From Chaetoceros tenuissimus (Eukaryota > Bacillariophyta > Thalassiosirophyceae > Chaetocerotales > Chaetocerotaceae): a DNA stretch of 64,000 bases. Made by a program: the position numbers and the translations under genes. Where the stretch lies: contig BLLK01000027.1 of assembly GCA_021927905.1 (NCBI GenBank), forward strand, positions 186,001 to 250,000, given 5' to 3'. The notes under the pieces were generated by a model. The model did no database searches, was not told the DNA's origin, and saw only the letters and a list, made by a program, of their open reading frames with translations. Of the stretch, positions 34,462-48,165 are shown in pieces. Each line of letters opens with the position of its first letter. Positions within the stretch are counted from its first letter, which is position 1.

Positions 34462-35433
34462 TCAATGGTTATTTTTTGCTCTGACACGTTTCCCATGTTT
34501 CCTACTTGTCCATTTTGTTTGATATCTTCCCCACATTTTTGATTGCCTTGCAATTTTGGTAGGCTTTTTCACCTGTTTCCTAGTTCTCACATAGCTGACA
34601 TCTTCGTTGCATTTGTTGTATATCTTTGTCTTTGGAGTTTTTGTCGAACGACTTGCAAAGCTTGCTTTTACCTTCACGGTCTCCCTCAATACTACAAAGG
34701 AACTCCCATCCTCTCTTTTGATTTTAGCGATTGGACTGAATTCCAGAGGGTAAGAATCGATGACTGTGTGTATTCCTTTGGTATTTATTAATGCACTATC
34801 GAGGCACTGAAAACTTTCATGGGTGAAAGACTCGACAAAATATTTCTCCTCAACTCTACCGTTCATGTTCACATGCATATGAAATTGTGATGAACTCTCT
34901 TCAGCATTGAAAACTATATCCAGCCATTTCATAGCAGTTGGGCATGTTCCATAGTTCTTTCCTATGATGATAAATGCACCGGGCTTTTCTCTACTTATTG
35001 AAAATGCCGAAGCAGCATCTAACAAATTCAATGACGTAGACTGCATATTATCAAGATCGACCGTGCCTTCGGTAGAAAAAAGAAAGACGTTCTCGTCCTT
35101 CAATACTATACCTAATTCATATAGATTTGATAGACGTGCGTTATGATAGATAGAGGATTCATCATCACATCCTACAGCATTGTCAAGGATTAGAATAGCA
35201 TCATACTGATGAAAATCTGAAGCGCTGAGTTTATTCCAATCCTCTAGACTTTTCAGGTCAATATTTTTGCTCAACTTTGCGTAGCTCAGAATTAAATATT
35301 TGAAAAGATTAATATCATCACTGGTTACTTTTTCTGGGAGAAGCGTTACAATACGACCATTACCCGCAGATGAATTGGATGGAAAAAGAAATGCTATGAG
35401 GAATAGAAAGTAGACTCTTTGTAGTGAAATCAT
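34462..35433 (-). CDS. Secreted/ER protein with basic tail, unknown
   Basis: The 323-residue product begins with a signal peptide (MISLQRVYFLFLIAFLFPSNSSAG). The next 200 residues alternate strands and helices (YDAILILDNAVG, NVFLFSTEG, GAFIIIGKNYG), suggesting an alpha/beta fold. The last 65 residues are very basic (KQVKKPTKIARQSKMWGRYQTKW, RKHGKRVRAKNNH). This bears some likeness to the lumenal OST48/WBP1 subunit of oligosaccharyltransferase in the N-terminal part (leader followed by an ILILDNAVG-type strand). But there is no C-terminal membrane helix, so I do not name it. Confidence 0.65.
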   Translation of the reverse strand: MISLQRVYFLFLIAFLFPSNSSAGNGRIVTLLPEKVTSDDINLFKYLILSYAKLSKNIDLKSLEDWNKLSASDFHQYDAILILDNAVGCDDESSIYHNARLSNLYELGIVLKDENVFLFSTEGTVDLDNMQSTSLNLLDAASAFSISREKPGAFIIIGKNYGTCPTAMKWLDIVFNAEESSSQFHMHVNMNGRVEEKYFVESFTHESFQCLDSALINTKGIHTVIDSYPLEFSPIAKIKREDGSSFVVLRETVKVKASFASRSTKTPKTKIYNKCNEDVSYVRTRKQVKKPTKIARQSKMWGRYQTKWTSRKHGKRVRAKNNH

Positions 35434-35827
35434 GATAACTTTGTTGCAACGAAAATATGTGAATTATGAGATGAAAATGTTCTAGAATAGCACAGTAATA
35501 CCATCTTTTGTAGCGAAAACAGATTTGGGAAATTCTGTGCAAGACTGAAATGGATTTGAAGTTTTTTCAATATGAGCTATTTTGTCTGTTTTCCACTTCA
35601 AAAACATTTGATCACGTACGTACTATTATGGTATCATTTCCCGATGACGTGATGTTTGAAGGACGAAAAACAAATCCAGAATAGACAACAGACAAAAGAA
35701 GAACTAAATCAACAGCTCAAATGATTTCATAATCAACGTATGTTTGTGACGAAGTATCAAAACTACTTTTGTTTTCATCATATATTTTCATTTTTGAGTT
35801 TTAAATTCCCTTTAGTAGCGGCTGGTG
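35434..35827. promoter_or_regulatory. Divergent promoter region with TGACGT site
   Basis: About 390 nt lie between the secreted protein and the PGAM fusion. CGATGACGTGATG near 35640 contains the TGACGT core known as a CO2/cAMP-responsive element in diatom promoters. That it acts here is inference. Confidence 0.4.
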
Positions 35828-38628
35828 ATGGTGAAATTGCTGAATATCACATTGGCAATCTTGCTTTTATCAAGCAACTATCTCTTGTCCATAGCTTTCT
35901 CATTTAGTGCAAGGAATGTGTGTAGATACTATGATAAATGCAACCGACCAACAACTTCATCATTGAATCTGCAAGATTTAAAATCAGGATATGATACAGA
36001 TGATGGCTACGCTAGATTTTTATACTCTTCCAAAAGGAAAAGACGTGAAAAGAGAATAGTTGATAGGGTCCGTTCTATAGATGAAGAAGATGAAGATGGA
36101 TACAAGGCGATGATGTTGAGTAAATATCCACTTTGGCAGAGACCTTTGAAAGTATTATATAGGGGCGTCAAGAGAATCACGCTTGGCAAGAAAGAACCAG
36201 GGACACTCATTCTTGTACGTCATGGTGAATCGGAATGGAATGCAAATAAAACATTTACTGGATGGGCCGACCCTGACCTGAGCGAACAAGGAATCCGCGA
36301 AACTGAACATGCGGCAAGATTGCTGTTGGCTGGTGGTTATGATATAGATGTTGTTTTCACTTCTAGATTAAAAAGAGCAATTAGGAGTGCCTGGATTATT
36401 CTTGGTGAGATGAGCCAACTTTACATTCCAGTATTTAAAAGTTGGAGATTGAATGAACGTATGTATGGAGCACTCACCGGATTATGTAAGAAAGAAACTG
36501 CAGAACAACTTGGCGCAGAGCTCGTGCAGAGTTGGAGAGGCAGTTTAAAGTCGCGTCCTCCGCCTGTACACATCTACGATAAACATTGGCCCGGACGCGA
36601 TAGACGATATTCAGATTTGTCGATGGATCAAATCCCATATACTGAAAGTCTCCTCGATTGCATGGAACGCACGAAACCAGCATGGGAAGAAAAGATAAAA
36701 CTTGAACTAAGGATGGGTAGAAATGTCATGGTTGTTGCTCATGCAAATACACTGAGAGGGCTCGTAAAACTTATTGATAACATTGGCGACCAGGAGATCC
36801 AAGAAGTTGCCTTGCCTACTGGAATCCCAATCGTTTATAAGTTTGATGCTAATATGAACCCAGTGAAACCAGACGAAGGACTGACCCAGAAACATATGAC
36901 TGGTATTTTCTTGGAGAAGCCAGGAACATTGAAGGAAGCAATCAAAAGGGAGAAAGAGTGGCTCGAAAACGTGCCGTAAGTATCTTCATATTGACTTTGT
37001 AGTTTGAAGTCACTGACATTTGTATTACAAAAACTAATATCGTGTAAATATTGCAATTCTTAGGGGGTACTCTCGTACTATGGGTAGAAGTAAAACAGTG
37101 ATGAGTCCGGTGGAACGAGCACTGAGCAAGCTTAAAGCCGAAAAAGAACTCGGCAAGTGGGCAGGTCAATTTATTGACGAAAATGCAGTTGAAGAAGATG
37201 ATGGCAGTGACGGAAATCTGGGAAAACCTATCCAGCTCGAAGATCAAGATAAGATTTGGCAGGAAGGTCTGCAGGATTTAGAAGAAGGACAACAATTTGA
37301 CCCAGATGGAACCTTTCATCCAGATAACAACACAAAGATACTTGACGAAGACGACGAAGAAGAAGAAGATATTGCTATACCACAAATGGTCACAAGTAAT
37401 GTACCTTGCATGCAGGCCATGCCTTCAGAATCAGTTGTACGTGGAATTGGTCAGGTTCCAATCCGAAAAGATCCAGTTGTCGTGCTAATCAGGCATGGTA
37501 AAACTGAGCACAACAAATTGAAGTTATTCACTGGTTGGTATGGTATGTAGTATTGAAATTGACTATGAGTAATTTCAATGTATTTTTACTAACAATGCAC
37601 CCATTCATCTCTCAAGACGCACCTCTAGCCCGGGAAGGACGTGAAGAAGCCAGAATGGCTGGCAAACTGCTCAAGGCTCATGGGTTTGAATTCGACGTCG
37701 TTTATACTTCGTGGCTTTCGAGAGCTATCGAAACAGCTTGGCTTGTCATAGATGAAATGGATGCTATTTGGCTTCCTATAATAAAATCATGGCGTTTAAA
37801 TGAACGTATGTACGGGAGCTTGACCGGAAAGAGTAAAAGCATGGTCTCACAGAAGTATGGAGAAAAGCAATTCAAGGCGTGGCGACGTGGATACAGTGTA
37901 AAACCTCCACCTGTATCCTCTTTTTCTGTGCATTATCCTGGGAATGATCCAAGATACAAGCTTATCAACGATATCAGAATTTCATTGAGTGAAACCATCA
38001 TGCGCTCGTTTGACAGTGGTCGTCCCACTATTTATCGAAAATTACCCAAGAGTGAGTCTCTCAAGGATTGTATGGACAGAACAATCCCATACTATGAACA
38101 GCAAATTGTTCCTGAAGCCCTCAATAAAGGGAAACGCGTTTTGATTTCATCGTCGGAAAATGCGATCCGTGGATTACTGATGGTGTTGTGTGCAATACCA
38201 CAAGACAAAATTTCAGGTTTGGAAATTCCAAATGGTGAGCATCTATATTGGTATTGATTGTGTCAATTTAAACATACATTTTATTCTCACTTGCTCTTTT
38301 CCATGAAAAGGTTTACCATTGATTTATGATGTCAAGTCAAAATGCATCAAACTACTCGATGATGGATCGGGAAGAGATCCTCTTGAGGAATACAACTTTG
38401 GAAGCGCAGCAAACTATTTGTTCCGCCCTTGTACAAATGATGCTGGCGAGGAGGAGGTAAGTCATGAAGAAATGGCGCTTTGAAAAAAAAATGCAGAAGA
38501 AAATCTAACACTCGTACTTTGTAAAGGAATGCGACATCACACTAATGAGTGACTTGATTACATTTGACGAGCAAGATACACAGACCATTGAATCAATAAG
38601 AAACACGACTGTAATTACAAATTTGTAG
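35828..38628 (+). CDS. Tandem phosphoglycerate mutase fusion, probably plastid-targeted (5 exons)
   Basis: Cofactor-dependent PGAM interconverts 3- and 2-phosphoglycerate. Exons are 35828-36975, 37064-37542, 37617-38234, 38311-38456 and 38527-38628, with four GT-AG introns of 70-88 nt; all phases check and total 830 residues. A hydrophobic leader (ILLLSSNYLLSIAFSFS) suggests plastid import. Domain 1 (about 124-340) has LVRHGESEWN with H132 and AHANTLRG with H305, so it looks active. A linker of about 140 residues, acidic in its second half, follows. Domain 2 (about 530-755) has LIRHGKTEHN (H527), TGWYDAPL and IKSWRLNERMYG. In domain 2 the second catalytic His position is S722 (ISSSENAIRG), so it probably lacks normal mutase activity. 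The stretch EIPNGLPLIYD crosses intron 3. Confidence 0.9.
36976..37063 (+). other. PGAM fusion intron 1
   Basis: 88 nt, GTAAGT to TTCTTAG, phase 2. It lies just after PGAM domain 1. Confidence 0.85.
37543..37616 (+). other. PGAM fusion intron 2
   Basis: 74 nt, GTATGT to CTCAAG, phase 1. It restores GWY|DAPL in domain 2. Confidence 0.85.
38235..38310 (+). other. PGAM fusion intron 3
   Basis: 76 nt, GTGAGC to GAAAAG, phase 1. It restores IPN|GLPLIYD. Confidence 0.85.
38457..38526 (+). other. PGAM fusion intron 4
   Basis: 70 nt, GTAAGT to GTAAAG, phase 0. It is followed by a 33-codon last exon ending in TAG. Confidence 0.8.
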
Positions 38629-39128
38629 ATTTTTCGATGGTAGATATAGGTAATAGATAAGTAATAAAATTAGATGAAAGATAGACGACTATCTTATAAC
38701 GCCAACTACTTCCAAAAGATCACGATATTTTTCTTTTACATCATATCTTCCTACCCACTACACGCCACAAATTGACTCTATTCTTCAGACTTTCTTCTTG
38801 ATATTGTAATAAATCTCGTCACTTAGAATAAAGCTTCTTAATCAGGAATCTATTCATTCTAATTATGAACAAAAAATGACTCCAATAATGACATCTCATA
38901 TTCTAAATGGCAAGAAATATAGAAAATATCTGGCTAGATTTTGACAAGACCCGTCATAGCTAAAAAGGCTATATATGACACGCATAAAGATATGTAATTG
39001 CAGAGGTGATGGGTGTCTTCGTCTTCTCAAAAAAGATTTGCAGAATTTCACAGATCACAGACTCGACTCCATTGTTCTTCTTATACTTTATCCTTGAATC
39101 TTCATATAGTCTATTAATTCAGTGCACT
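38629..39128. promoter_or_regulatory. Intergenic region upstream of FNR
   Basis: About 500 nt of AT-rich sequence. No coding exon is supported. The frame of FNR is open back to 39006, but that stretch has no targeting character and is read here as leader. Confidence 0.3.
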
Positions 39129-40367
39129 ATGAATCTCATCCTATCAACATCATTCTTTTCCTTTCTTACGAGCTGCGCGGCTTTCCAGTCTACTCCTGCT
39201 GCGAGGCTTCCAACTCGTCTGAGTCTAAGTAACGAGAGAATCAAGGCCAGTGGATGTGGCATCCCAACTGTTCGCTCCGGTGATTGCCTCTTATTCGATC
39301 CAGAAGTTGAAGGAAAACTTCAGGGAACTGGAGCTCTTGCCTCTCGCATCAAAGCTGGAAGTGCATATAATCTTCCACACGATGCTACTATTATTGAATA
39401 CAATGGAGCTAGTGTTCCTCATTCTGCAGAAATTCTAGATGCACAGCATTGGCTTGAGTATCTTGATGAAGGTTCTGATCTCCCTCTCAATTTTGCCAAG
39501 CCAAACAACCCTGTTACTGCGACTGTTTTAGCTAGAACTAGAATCATAGCTGATGATGCTCCAGGAGATATTCAGCATATCATTCTTCGTCTTCCTGAAG
39601 GTATGCACTACGTTGAAGGACAGAGTTTATCAGTCATTCCTTCTGGTACTGATGCTGCAACTGGAAAGAAACATAAGCCTAGATTGTATTCAATTGCCTC
39701 AACTCGTTATGGAGATATACTTGATGGAAATACCATTAGTCTTTGTGTTCGCAGAGCTGAATACTATGATCCTGCCACTGGTCTTCCTGACCCAGCAAAG
39801 AAAGGAGTTTGCTCTAACATGCTTTGTGATTCTAATCCAGGTGATATGATCAATGTTGCAGGACCTGTTGGAAAGACTATGCTCTTGCCTGAGAATCCAA
39901 ATTCAGATGTCATCATGATAGCAACCGGAACTGGTATTGCTCCATTCCGTGGATTCATGCATCGTCTATTTATGGAAAACACCGTAGCTCGTCATATGTT
40001 TGGTGGAACTGCTTGGCTAGTGTTGGGAGTCCCAACAACAGGAGGCCTTCTATATAAGGAAGAATTTGATGCTATGCAGAAGAATGCTAGCCCAGGTTCA
40101 TTGAAAATTGATTATGCTATTTCCAGAGAAATGACAAATGAGATTGACGGGGGAAAACTGTACGTTCAGCACGTTATTGCACAGAACGCTGTCGAGTTTT
40201 TCAATAGATTGGATAATGGCGCATCTTGCTACTTTTGCGGTTTGAAGGGCATGATGCCACCTATCCTGGAAACGCTTGAACAAGTAGCAAATGCGAATGG
40301 AATCGATTTTGATAGCAAACTCAAGGAGTGGAAAGCTAACCATCAATGGCATGTAGAAGTCTACTAA
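39129..40367 (+). CDS. petH: Plastid ferredoxin-NADP+ reductase
   Basis: It transfers electrons from reduced ferredoxin to NADP+ at the end of photosynthetic electron transport. From the ATG at 39129 the product is 412 residues. A signal peptide (MNLILSTSFFSFLTSCAAFQS) ends in an ASAFF-like site, so 39129 is preferred over the in-frame ATG at 39006. The FAD domain has RLYSIAST. The NADP domain has IATGTGIAPFRGF and CYFCGLKGM, and the chain ends in the typical aromatic Tyr (HVEVY). A stretch of about 65 residues between leader and reductase core (GCGIPTVRSGDCLLFDPEVEGKL...) resembles the linker seen in algal FNRs. Confidence 0.93.
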   Translation: MNLILSTSFFSFLTSCAAFQSTPAARLPTRLSLSNERIKASGCGIPTVRSGDCLLFDPEVEGKLQGTGALASRIKAGSAYNLPHDATIIEYNGASVPHSAEILDAQHWLEYLDEGSDLPLNFAKPNNPVTATVLARTRIIADDAPGDIQHIILRLPEGMHYVEGQSLSVIPSGTDAATGKKHKPRLYSIASTRYGDILDGNTISLCVRRAEYYDPATGLPDPAKKGVCSNMLCDSNPGDMINVAGPVGKTMLLPENPNSDVIMIATGTGIAPFRGFMHRLFMENTVARHMFGGTAWLVLGVPTTGGLLYKEEFDAMQKNASPGSLKIDYAISREMTNEIDGGKLYVQHVIAQNAVEFFNRLDNGASCYFCGLKGMMPPILETLEQVANANGIDFDSKLKEWKANHQWHVEVY

Positions 40368-46287: not shown

Positions 46288-48165
46288 ATGATTTGCTTCT
46301 ATGCATTGGTTTGTTTTGCATTTTGCTCTGGAATAGAAGCTAGGATCATTACAATTGAAGATTTCGGAGGTAAGCAGGGTTCTTTCTTGATCGCGTTAAT
46401 CCCATTTTGTCTCTACACATATTTTTTTAAACATATAAAACTTTTTGATTCATAGGCAAACCTGATTCACAAATTCCAAGCCCGAAAGAACCTCTACTTC
46501 ATTCGGAATTTCATCATTCTTCTGTGAAAAAAGTGAACACGTTGAGAGTAAAACATCATAGAGCAAAGGATGATGAGAATATAAAGAAACAAGCTATTGA
46601 AAATACAAAGGCGTACAATTTAGCTATGCAAGCAGCGGAGAGAGGTGACAGGATTTTACTAAAGGAACACGAAACATATACCTTTATAGGAGGTATTGAA
46701 GGTGTGAATTTGAATGGTGTTACTTTAGATTTTGCAGGATATACAAGGTTTATCTTTGATTTAGATCAATGGCCCATGAGAAATTATACAGGCGGTGCGC
46801 AAGATGTAACAGATCTGGAATATGTCCCATGTATTGATTTGGTAGATTGCAAAGATGTAGTCATTACATGTAGCGCACAAGATAAGGCCATTGTGGATGT
46901 GGATTATGAAACAGATGAAATCTATTTGGATCAAGATAGTGGTAATGGAGGAATTATTGACGGAAGAGGCAAAAAGTGGTGGGACAGTGCAATCATTGGT
47001 GATATTGATGTCGAGAATAGACCAAGACTGATTGACATTCGAGGCAGTATGAATGTGACTGTAGAAAATTTGACCTTGGTCAATAGTCCTTATTGGAGTT
47101 TGACTTTGGAAGCTATAGGCGCCGAAGTACATCATGTAAATGTGCTTATCGACCGAAAATATCAAAGAAGGATACATAATAATACAGAAATACGCCAACA
47201 ATTTGTAGGCACCGAAGATGTTGAAAGTGAAGCGAGAACCGCACGTCGACTGAGGTCCCGGGAGCTAAAGTTTCATTTTCCTGATGTATTTCCTGACTGG
47301 GTGCTTCAACCCCAAAATCTGAATACTGATGGCATTGATCCAATTGGACAGAATATCTACATTCATGACTGTATTATTTTGAATGATGACGATTCTATAG
47401 CTGTCAAGCCTCCAAGACATGGGAAAAGAGGTAGTATCTTGAATGGTACCATTCCATATGACTGTACGCGAAATGTGACTGTAGAAGATGTGGTATTGAC
47501 AGGATTCGGTGCTTCAATAGGTAGTGTAGGGCCATCGCCTATGAGTGACTATCATCCTTGTGTAGATCAGGTCTCATTTAAAAGGATTAAAATGCCAGGG
47601 ACTGGTAAAGGCATATACATCAAAAGCAACAAGAGCGATTGTAATAATGGTGTTGGATCAAGCATCACGAACATTTTGTAAGTTGGATAAGATTTTATAG
47701 CCTCATTGTAATAGGCTTCCTCACAATATACTTTCGTTCACCACTAGGTATGATGATATCTACATCAAGAGCCCAGTTTGGTGGCCGATCTGGATTGGAC
47801 CTCAACAGCAACATGAACCTCATTCTTCCTTGGGAGGAAATTGTGAATTAGATTACCCGATTGGGACTGTCAAATGCCCTACGCAAGGTTGTACAAACTT
47901 TGAAAATATAACAATTCGGAACGTTTTGATTGAAGATCCATTGCTTTCTCCAGGTGTTTTGATGGGGAATGCGAGCTCCCCAATGAAGAATATCTTTTTT
48001 GACAATGTAACTATGAATGTACCTTTCAAATATTATCTGACACATGGAAGACTCCCATTTCATACTAGGCGATTCCCATTCAAAGGAAGGTACAAAGTGA
48101 AAGGGGTGCAAGGTGTGGCAAGGAACTGTAATCCTATCCCTGATGGGTTTGATGTAATTGAATAA
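46288..48165 (+). CDS. Secreted GH28-like (polygalacturonase-fold) protein with altered active site (3 exons)
   Basis: GH28 enzymes hydrolyse pectic polymers. Exons are 46288-46369, 46456-47677 and 47748-48165, with introns of 86 and 70 nt; phases check and give 573 residues. A signal peptide (MICFYALVCFAFCSGIEA) is followed by an EDFGGKPD motif usual at the start of the fold. Active-site blocks are present: NTDGID (N317-D322), LNDDDSIAV (D339, D340) and IYIKS with K417. The GHG histidine is replaced by F378 (TGFGASIGS) and the RIK arginine by Y415. The protein keeps the three catalytic Asp positions but lacks the conserved His and Arg, so specificity or activity may differ. Downstream strands (NILYDDIYIKSPVWWPIWIG) continue the beta-helix. 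Confidence 0.85.
46370..46455 (+). other. GH28-like gene intron 1
   Basis: 86 nt, GTAAGC to TTCATAG, phase 1, shortly after the signal peptide. Confidence 0.8.
47678..47747 (+). other. GH28-like gene intron 2
   Basis: 70 nt, GTAAGT to CACTAG, phase 2. It joins ITNI|LYDDIYIKS. Confidence 0.8.

Follow-up and report, generated by a model that had tools for sequence, protein, structure and literature searches.

A tandem phosphoglycerate mutase lacking a catalytic histidine in one half, and a paralogue lacking one in the opposite half

The gene at positions 35828 to 38628 of the window (the whole 64,000-nucleotide stretch of DNA that was analysed) has five exons, which on splicing give 2493 nt including the stop codon and a frame open for 830 amino acids (Table 1). 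Pfam matched PF00300 in two stretches of this protein. The initial annotation had described an 830-residue product with four introns and two phosphoglycerate mutase (PGAM) domains, and the gene model bears this out; both domains are of the cofactor-dependent type (dPGAM).

Table 1. Coordinates of the tandem gene, its key residues and the related genes elsewhere in the genome (window positions unless a contig is named)
Feature	Position	Strand	Basis or remark
Bipartite plastid-type leader, signal-peptide-like stretch ending ...LSIA-FSFSARN	35828..35920	+	by eye in translation
Exon 1: leader (aa 1 to ~122) and entire domain 1 (~aa 124-375)	35828..36975	+	open frame, gene model
TIGR01258 match within exon 1	aa 126-349	+	profile search
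H132, phospho-accepting His of domain 1 (E. coli H10)	36221..36223	+	translation, alignment
G238 (GGC), domain 1, where dPGAMs carry Arg116 (E. coli numbering)	36539..36541	+	active-site table
H305, second catalytic His of domain 1 (E. coli H183)	36740..36742	+	translation, alignment
Intron 1: 88 nt, phase 2	36976..37063	+	gene model; spliced VPG motif agrees with C34 paralogue
Exon 2: acidic linker and start of domain 2	37064..37542	+	gene model
H527, phospho-accepting His of domain 2 (RHG)	37494..37496	+	translation, alignment
Intron 2: 74 nt, phase 1	37543..37616	+	gene model; FTGW-D-PLA rebuilt on splicing
Exon 3: bulk of domain 2	37617..38234	+	gene model, alignment to solved dPGAMs
S722 (TCG), domain 2, where dPGAMs carry the second catalytic His	38153..38155	+	alignment
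Intron 3: 76 nt, phase 1	38235..38310	+	gene model; PNG-PL-Y rebuilt on splicing
Exon 4: end of domain 2 and FGSAA(N/Q)YLFRPC tail common to paralogue	38311..38456	+	gene model, paralogue alignment
Intron 4: 70 nt, phase 0, GTAAGT donor	38457..38526	+	gene model, without homology support
Exon 5: final 34 codons including stop, without counterpart in C34 paralogue	38527..38628	+	gene model
Second tandem dPGAM gene (L012)	C34:2051107-2053496	-	TIGR01258 search; 751 aa spliced
Canonical single-domain PGAM (L013), both His and both Arg	C19:532943	+	leader VANA-FMS, plastid-type by eye
Enolase (L056)	C19:532434	-	leader NTFA-FVT, plastid-type by eye

All four introns are of the GT-AG type and AT-rich (27 to 33% GC, versus 35 to 43% in the exons). 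The first three junctions rebuild motifs that are present in a paralogue on contig C34 (VPG, FTGW-D-PLA and PNG-PL-Y). Junction 4 falls outside the homologous region, and a protein of 805 residues would result if intron 4 stayed in. If intron 1 stayed in, translation would stop after domain 1, at 383 residues, as an in-frame TAA (36977-36979) overlaps the intron 1 donor; such retention is a possible switch between one-domain and two-domain forms. The linker between the domains is strongly acidic, with 26 Asp or Glu against 3 Lys or Arg in residues 421 to 500.

Upstream of the gene, on the minus strand, is a 333-residue open frame with a signal-peptide-like start (34465-35463), for which a Pfam search gave no match. 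The downstream neighbour (38988-40367) has a plastid-type leader by eye and a PF00175 match, and looks like a ferredoxin-NADP reductase. Further along the window, at 46449-47678, an open frame matches glycosyl hydrolase family 28, the polygalacturonase family; such a pectin-type enzyme is set here in a genome that looks algal.

Among the enzymes of glycolysis, dPGAM is highly conserved. Both domains of the window protein cover most of the dPGAM family model TIGR01258, to which E. coli GpmA (1e58) and human PGAM1 (1yfk) belong, scoring 272.6 bits (domain 1) and 250.0 bits (domain 2). As the cut-off is 81.7, neither match can be due to chance. Stricter equivalog models were missed by both (the best, PRK14115, gave 276.2 and 247.4 against a threshold of 305). 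By sequence, the nearest solved relatives of both halves are dPGAMs. The window protein differs from a dPGAM in having two domains on one chain, together with the acidic linker and the leader. Domain 1 has both histidines, as in dPGAM, but lacks Arg116 (E. coli numbering), whereas domain 2 has the RHG motif and the Arg pair but lacks the second His and carries an insert of about 21 residues. AlphaFold, run on single sequences, gave a mean pLDDT of 36.1 for exon 1 (domain 1) and 36.3 for exon 3 (most of domain 2), too low for either model to be used.

The residues on which the original description turned (H132, H305, H527 and S722) are all at the positions claimed, both in the translation and in an active-site table. 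Domain 2 had been said to lack its second catalytic histidine, and a test for His at that position found none. The region around S722 was ungapped in alignments with four solved dPGAMs. The only histidines in the 830-residue protein are at positions 132, 161, 248, 253, 305, 356, 468, 527, 532, 564 and 648, and since there is none after residue 648 in this model, domain 2 genuinely lacks its second catalytic His, and no structure-based alignment could supply one. A shifted alignment that hides a nearby His is ruled out, none being present. With intron 4 unspliced, one further His would come in with the tail (...VSHEEMAL), approximately 78 residues past S722 and outside the domain match. A sequencing error is also ruled out as the origin of the His-to-Ser change because three base changes would be needed, the S722 codon (TCG) matching neither His codon at any base.

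The active-site table covers E. coli positions 9, 10, 11, 13, 16, 61, 88, 91, 99, 115, 116 and 182-186. All 33 control rows (L023-L055, of which 31 come from bacterial genomes and 2 from IMG/VR contigs) were the same as E. coli at all 16 positions, Arg116 and His183 included, in a control biased towards best-scoring matches that are nearly all of one phylum. Window domain 1 departs at positions 116 (Arg to Gly), 184 (Gly to Ala) and 186 (Ser to Thr), of which the changes at 184 and 186 are common to other domains of this genome. Window domain 2 departs at 183 (His to Ser) and also at 13, 182, 184 and 186. At the Arg115-Arg116 pair domain 1 reads WRG, the glycine being G238, and domain 2 reads WRR. 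Otherwise domain 1 keeps both His, Glu88, Arg9, Arg61, Lys99 and Arg115, and domain 2 keeps Arg9, His10, Arg61, Glu88, Lys99, Arg115 and Arg116.

Human BPGM contacts the phosphate of 3-PGA through its equivalent residues, Arg116 and Arg117, according to passages of PMC8972806, so G238 would be expected to weaken substrate binding by window domain 1. Domain 1 had been described as retaining both catalytic histidines. It does retain them, but with Arg116 replaced by Gly238 it cannot be counted as a plainly active domain.

The same genome carries another tandem dPGAM gene, on contig C34. Over 690 aligned positions its product shares 54% identity with the window protein, which it resembles in domain order, N-terminal leader, linker ends, domain 2 insert and C-terminal FGSAAQYLFRPC tail. 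Its linker has no intron: a single exon spans the end of domain 1, the linker and the beginning of domain 2. This is the best evidence here for a real fusion and, together with the gene model, it upholds the two-domain reading. The C34 copy differs from the window gene in being shorter (751 residues, with a shorter linker) and in having no intron position in common with it. In its active sites the pattern is reversed. Domain 1 has lost the first His (RGG for RHG) and Asn16, departing at 10 (His to Gly), 16 (Asn to Ser), 184 and 186, whereas domain 2 has both histidines and departs at 13, 182, 184 and 186 only.

Each tandem protein therefore has one His-complete domain, domain 1 in the window protein and domain 2 in the C34 copy. 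The full His/Arg/Lys/Glu set is found in C34-copy domain 2 alone among the four tandem domains, and in neither half of the window protein. The initial annotation had placed a pseudo-enzyme in the second position; domain 2 of the window protein does lack its second catalytic His, but the putative pseudo-domain is not fixed to domain 2, since the paralogue lost a catalytic histidine in domain 1 instead. Both tandem proteins carry the insert of domain 2 and the C-terminal tail (window 37617-38456), neither of which was seen in the remaining dPGAM rows of the active-site table.

A profile search of the whole genome (41.0 Mb, 68 contigs) gave 18 TIGR01258 stretches. Sixteen of these were read as making up nine genes of dPGAM type; the other two, isolated and weak (28.3 and 25.9 bits, under the cut-off), were excluded. 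The seven genes other than the tandem pair encode one domain each, and both histidines are kept in 7/7. For comparison, 116 of 150 genomes of one bacterial phylum had some TIGR01258 match and 42 had one above the cut-off; by eye, no two joined full dPGAM domains were seen among the matches listed for these 150 genomes. G029, G044, G096 and G103 each had more than one dPGAM match above the cut-off, at separate places. A domain 1 query gave 43 pattern matches in viral contigs, of which two were relatives, both dPGAM. With domain 2 as query there were no relatives among 69 pattern matches in viral contigs and one, a bacterial dPGAM, among 32 in genome contigs.

The history of the two genes was examined in a tree of 16 rows (L025 left out), in which 8 of 13 inner branches were unresolved and the row from C21 was very long, so that its deeper groupings are unsure. 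The first domains of both tandem genes grouped together (100/99), as did the second domains (100/100). An alternative with the two domains of one protein as sisters was rejected both for the window protein (AU 3e-38) and for the C34 copy (AU 3e-52). As far as sequence comparison goes, this grouping shows that the tandem genes are two copies of a single old fusion, which preceded the duplication. The simplest ancestor would have had both His pairs in both domains. A single clade of all four tandem domains, as descent from one doubled domain would give, was not rejected (p 0.44). The saturation of synonymous sites points to an old duplication.

Between the window gene and the C34 copy, identity and NG86 dN were 59% and 0.39 for domain 1 and 66% and 0.32 for domain 2, compared with 16% and 1.15 for the leader and 22% and 1.07 for the mid-linker. 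As the domains are far better kept than the leader and the mid-linker, both are constrained by comparison, which suggests that both may still be under constraint; saturation of dS rules out the use of dN/dS, and the branch on which constraint acted cannot be told from two sequences compared as a pair. The end branch of window domain 2, which lacks its His, was the shortest of the four (0.18) and that of C34-copy domain 1 the longest (0.50). Polarised differences, window against paralogue, numbered 21 versus 38 in domain 1 and 21 versus 25 in domain 2 (Fisher P = 0.32). Relaxed constraint is thus not apparent in window domain 2 and is possible in C34-copy domain 1.

The leader of the window protein had been described as plastid-type, and by eye it looks so, with a Phe following the apparent signal-peptide site (SIA-FSF). 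The whole leader, MVKLLNITLAILLLSSNYLLSIA-FSFSARN, resembles that of diatom plastid proteins, which has an ASAFAP-like motif. By eye, the leader of the C34 copy (...YAHG-FVQ) is also plastid-type. On contig C19 a canonical PGAM gene and an enolase gene, both with such leaders, are oriented divergently, their start codons 508 bp apart, and they possibly share one promoter for plastid lower glycolysis. The one other enolase found in the genome has a leader that looks mitochondrial.

Plastid-targeted PGAM1 (dPGAM-type) proteins and a plastid pathway are described in diatoms in sections of PMC11371179, with which a standard PGAM-enolase pair in the plastid seems to agree. Together with that source, the leaders suggest that the genome is a diatom's. 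The source treats cpPGAM1A, cpPGAM1B and PGAM2, and the window protein, itself dPGAM-type and perhaps plastid-targeted, would resemble its PGAM1 proteins. In its main text the words 'fusion', 'two PGAM' and 'pseudoenzyme' are absent, and 'tandem' occurs only in tandem mass spectrometry. Given the canonical plastid-type PGAM and enolase, basic lower glycolysis in the plastid would seem not to need the tandem protein. A link between the gene and that pathway had been suggested from the leader; the leader does look plastid-type, but the link is weakened by this canonical pair. An additional role is likely for the tandem proteins.

The reading that we favour, and in which our confidence is about evenly balanced, is that of a tandem dPGAM with one His-complete half in each copy, the other half being kept as a structural or regulatory partner. 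One half would carry out phosphohistidine chemistry on phosphoglycerates. The other would be a built-in partner that replaces the second subunit, dPGAM being usually a dimer, and might have kept a regulatory site for 3-PGA or 2,3-BPG. Regulation, dimer mimicry or a new binding role, first suggested for the pseudo-domain, may each apply. For the window protein this reading makes domain 1 the working half which, lacking Arg116, would probably be a weak mutase or lean towards phosphatase or BPG-handling activity. As domain 2 keeps the nucleophilic His and the substrate-binding Arg residues, it could bind ligand or be phosphorylated without turnover. The bulk of plastid flux from 3-PGA to 2-PGA would be carried by the separate canonical enzyme.

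Three points count against this reading. Without Arg116 the 'one good half' of the window protein may not be a good mutase. The reversed pattern of loss could be chance, as there are only two genes with one His loss each. Finally, the long end branch and the larger number of derived differences of C34-copy domain 1 are as relaxed constraint would give.

The main rival reading, possible although we consider it unlikely, is that neither half is a working mutase and that the protein senses 3-PGA or 2,3-BPG in the plastid, or works as a phosphatase or a synthase of 2,3-BPG, the canonical enzyme with its plastid-type leader performing the mutase step. R116G in domain 1 and H183S in domain 2 both fall at positions that were invariant in 33/33 control rows, and the use of the Arg pair by the human relative BPGM to bind the phosphate of 3-PGA (PMC8972806, in part) points the same way. 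However, the remainder of the active site of domain 1 is kept (both His, Glu88, Arg9, Arg61, Lys99 and Arg115), loss of one of two paired arginines need not abolish activity, and domain 2 of the C34 copy has both histidines and the Arg pair.

There is a small chance that domain 2 is still a slow enzyme in which S722 or a neighbour partly fills the role of the second His. The conserved state of the domain, with seven residues of its active site kept from Arg9 to Arg116, would fit, but there is no His nearby and we know of no Ser that substitutes for the second catalytic His. The changes A182S, G184E and S186A are uninformative either way as they also occur in His-complete C34-copy domain 2.

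It is very improbable that the locus consists of two adjacent genes, with exon 1 ending at the TAA over the intron 1 donor and exons 2 to 5 forming a separate transcript. Unspliced exon 1 does meet an in-frame stop at once, and exon 2 has an ATG at 37080. Against this, the parts are separated by a mere 88 nt of AT-rich sequence bounded by GTAAGT and TTCTTAG, the paralogue has the same order without a linker intron, and the spliced VPG motif and linker ends agree between the two. Two separate genes were therefore rejected as the main reading, the paralogue linker being unbroken. Decay of a redundant duplicate, with domain 2 losing function in a genome rich in PGAMs, is likewise very improbable: seven further single-domain genes, the loss of an essential His and the longest end branch on the disarmed C34-copy domain 1 would suit it, but the frame is open across five exons, window domain 2 is 65 to 68% identical to its paralogue with the shortest end branch, and the change to Ser must be old, its codon having undergone three substitutions.

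An extension of the favoured reading, of a tandem dPGAM with one half kept as partner, is that losses in opposite halves make the two proteins a matched regulatory pair, each supplying the half that is disarmed in the other and together sensing or setting plastid 3-PGA or 2,3-BPG. This seems improbable. If it were true, the 2,3-BPG pool in question would be the cofactor needed by the canonical plastid PGAM encoded beside enolase. To our knowledge, how this cofactor is made and controlled in plastids with dPGAM is not settled.

Mammalian hexokinases I and III are glycolytic enzymes doubled in one chain, one half of which is no longer catalytic. The window protein is similar to the hexokinase I type in having two homologous domains per chain, one without an essential catalytic residue, from which loss of activity would follow. 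In the hexokinases it is the same half, the N-terminal one, that is lost, whereas here two paralogues have lost a His in opposite halves. BPGM, as described in passages of PMC8972806, offers another likeness: this relative of dPGAM has an altered activity, a ligand-binding site where its subunits meet and two active sites that are not equivalent, but it is a dimer of one domain and has both Arg116 and Arg117. No paper on a tandem or half-inactive PGAM was found among the open-licence papers listed, judged by titles and the starts of abstracts, nor is one mentioned in passages of PMC5715807 and PMC6198282.

A doubled enzyme with a dead half is thus familiar from the hexokinases, and a dPGAM version with His losses in opposite halves seems to be new. 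Sister genes with opposite halves disarmed are a natural test of why a dead enzyme half is kept. The opposite disarming in the sister gene suggests that the dead half may be kept for a purpose, and a few assays of the separate and joined domains could tell what that purpose is.
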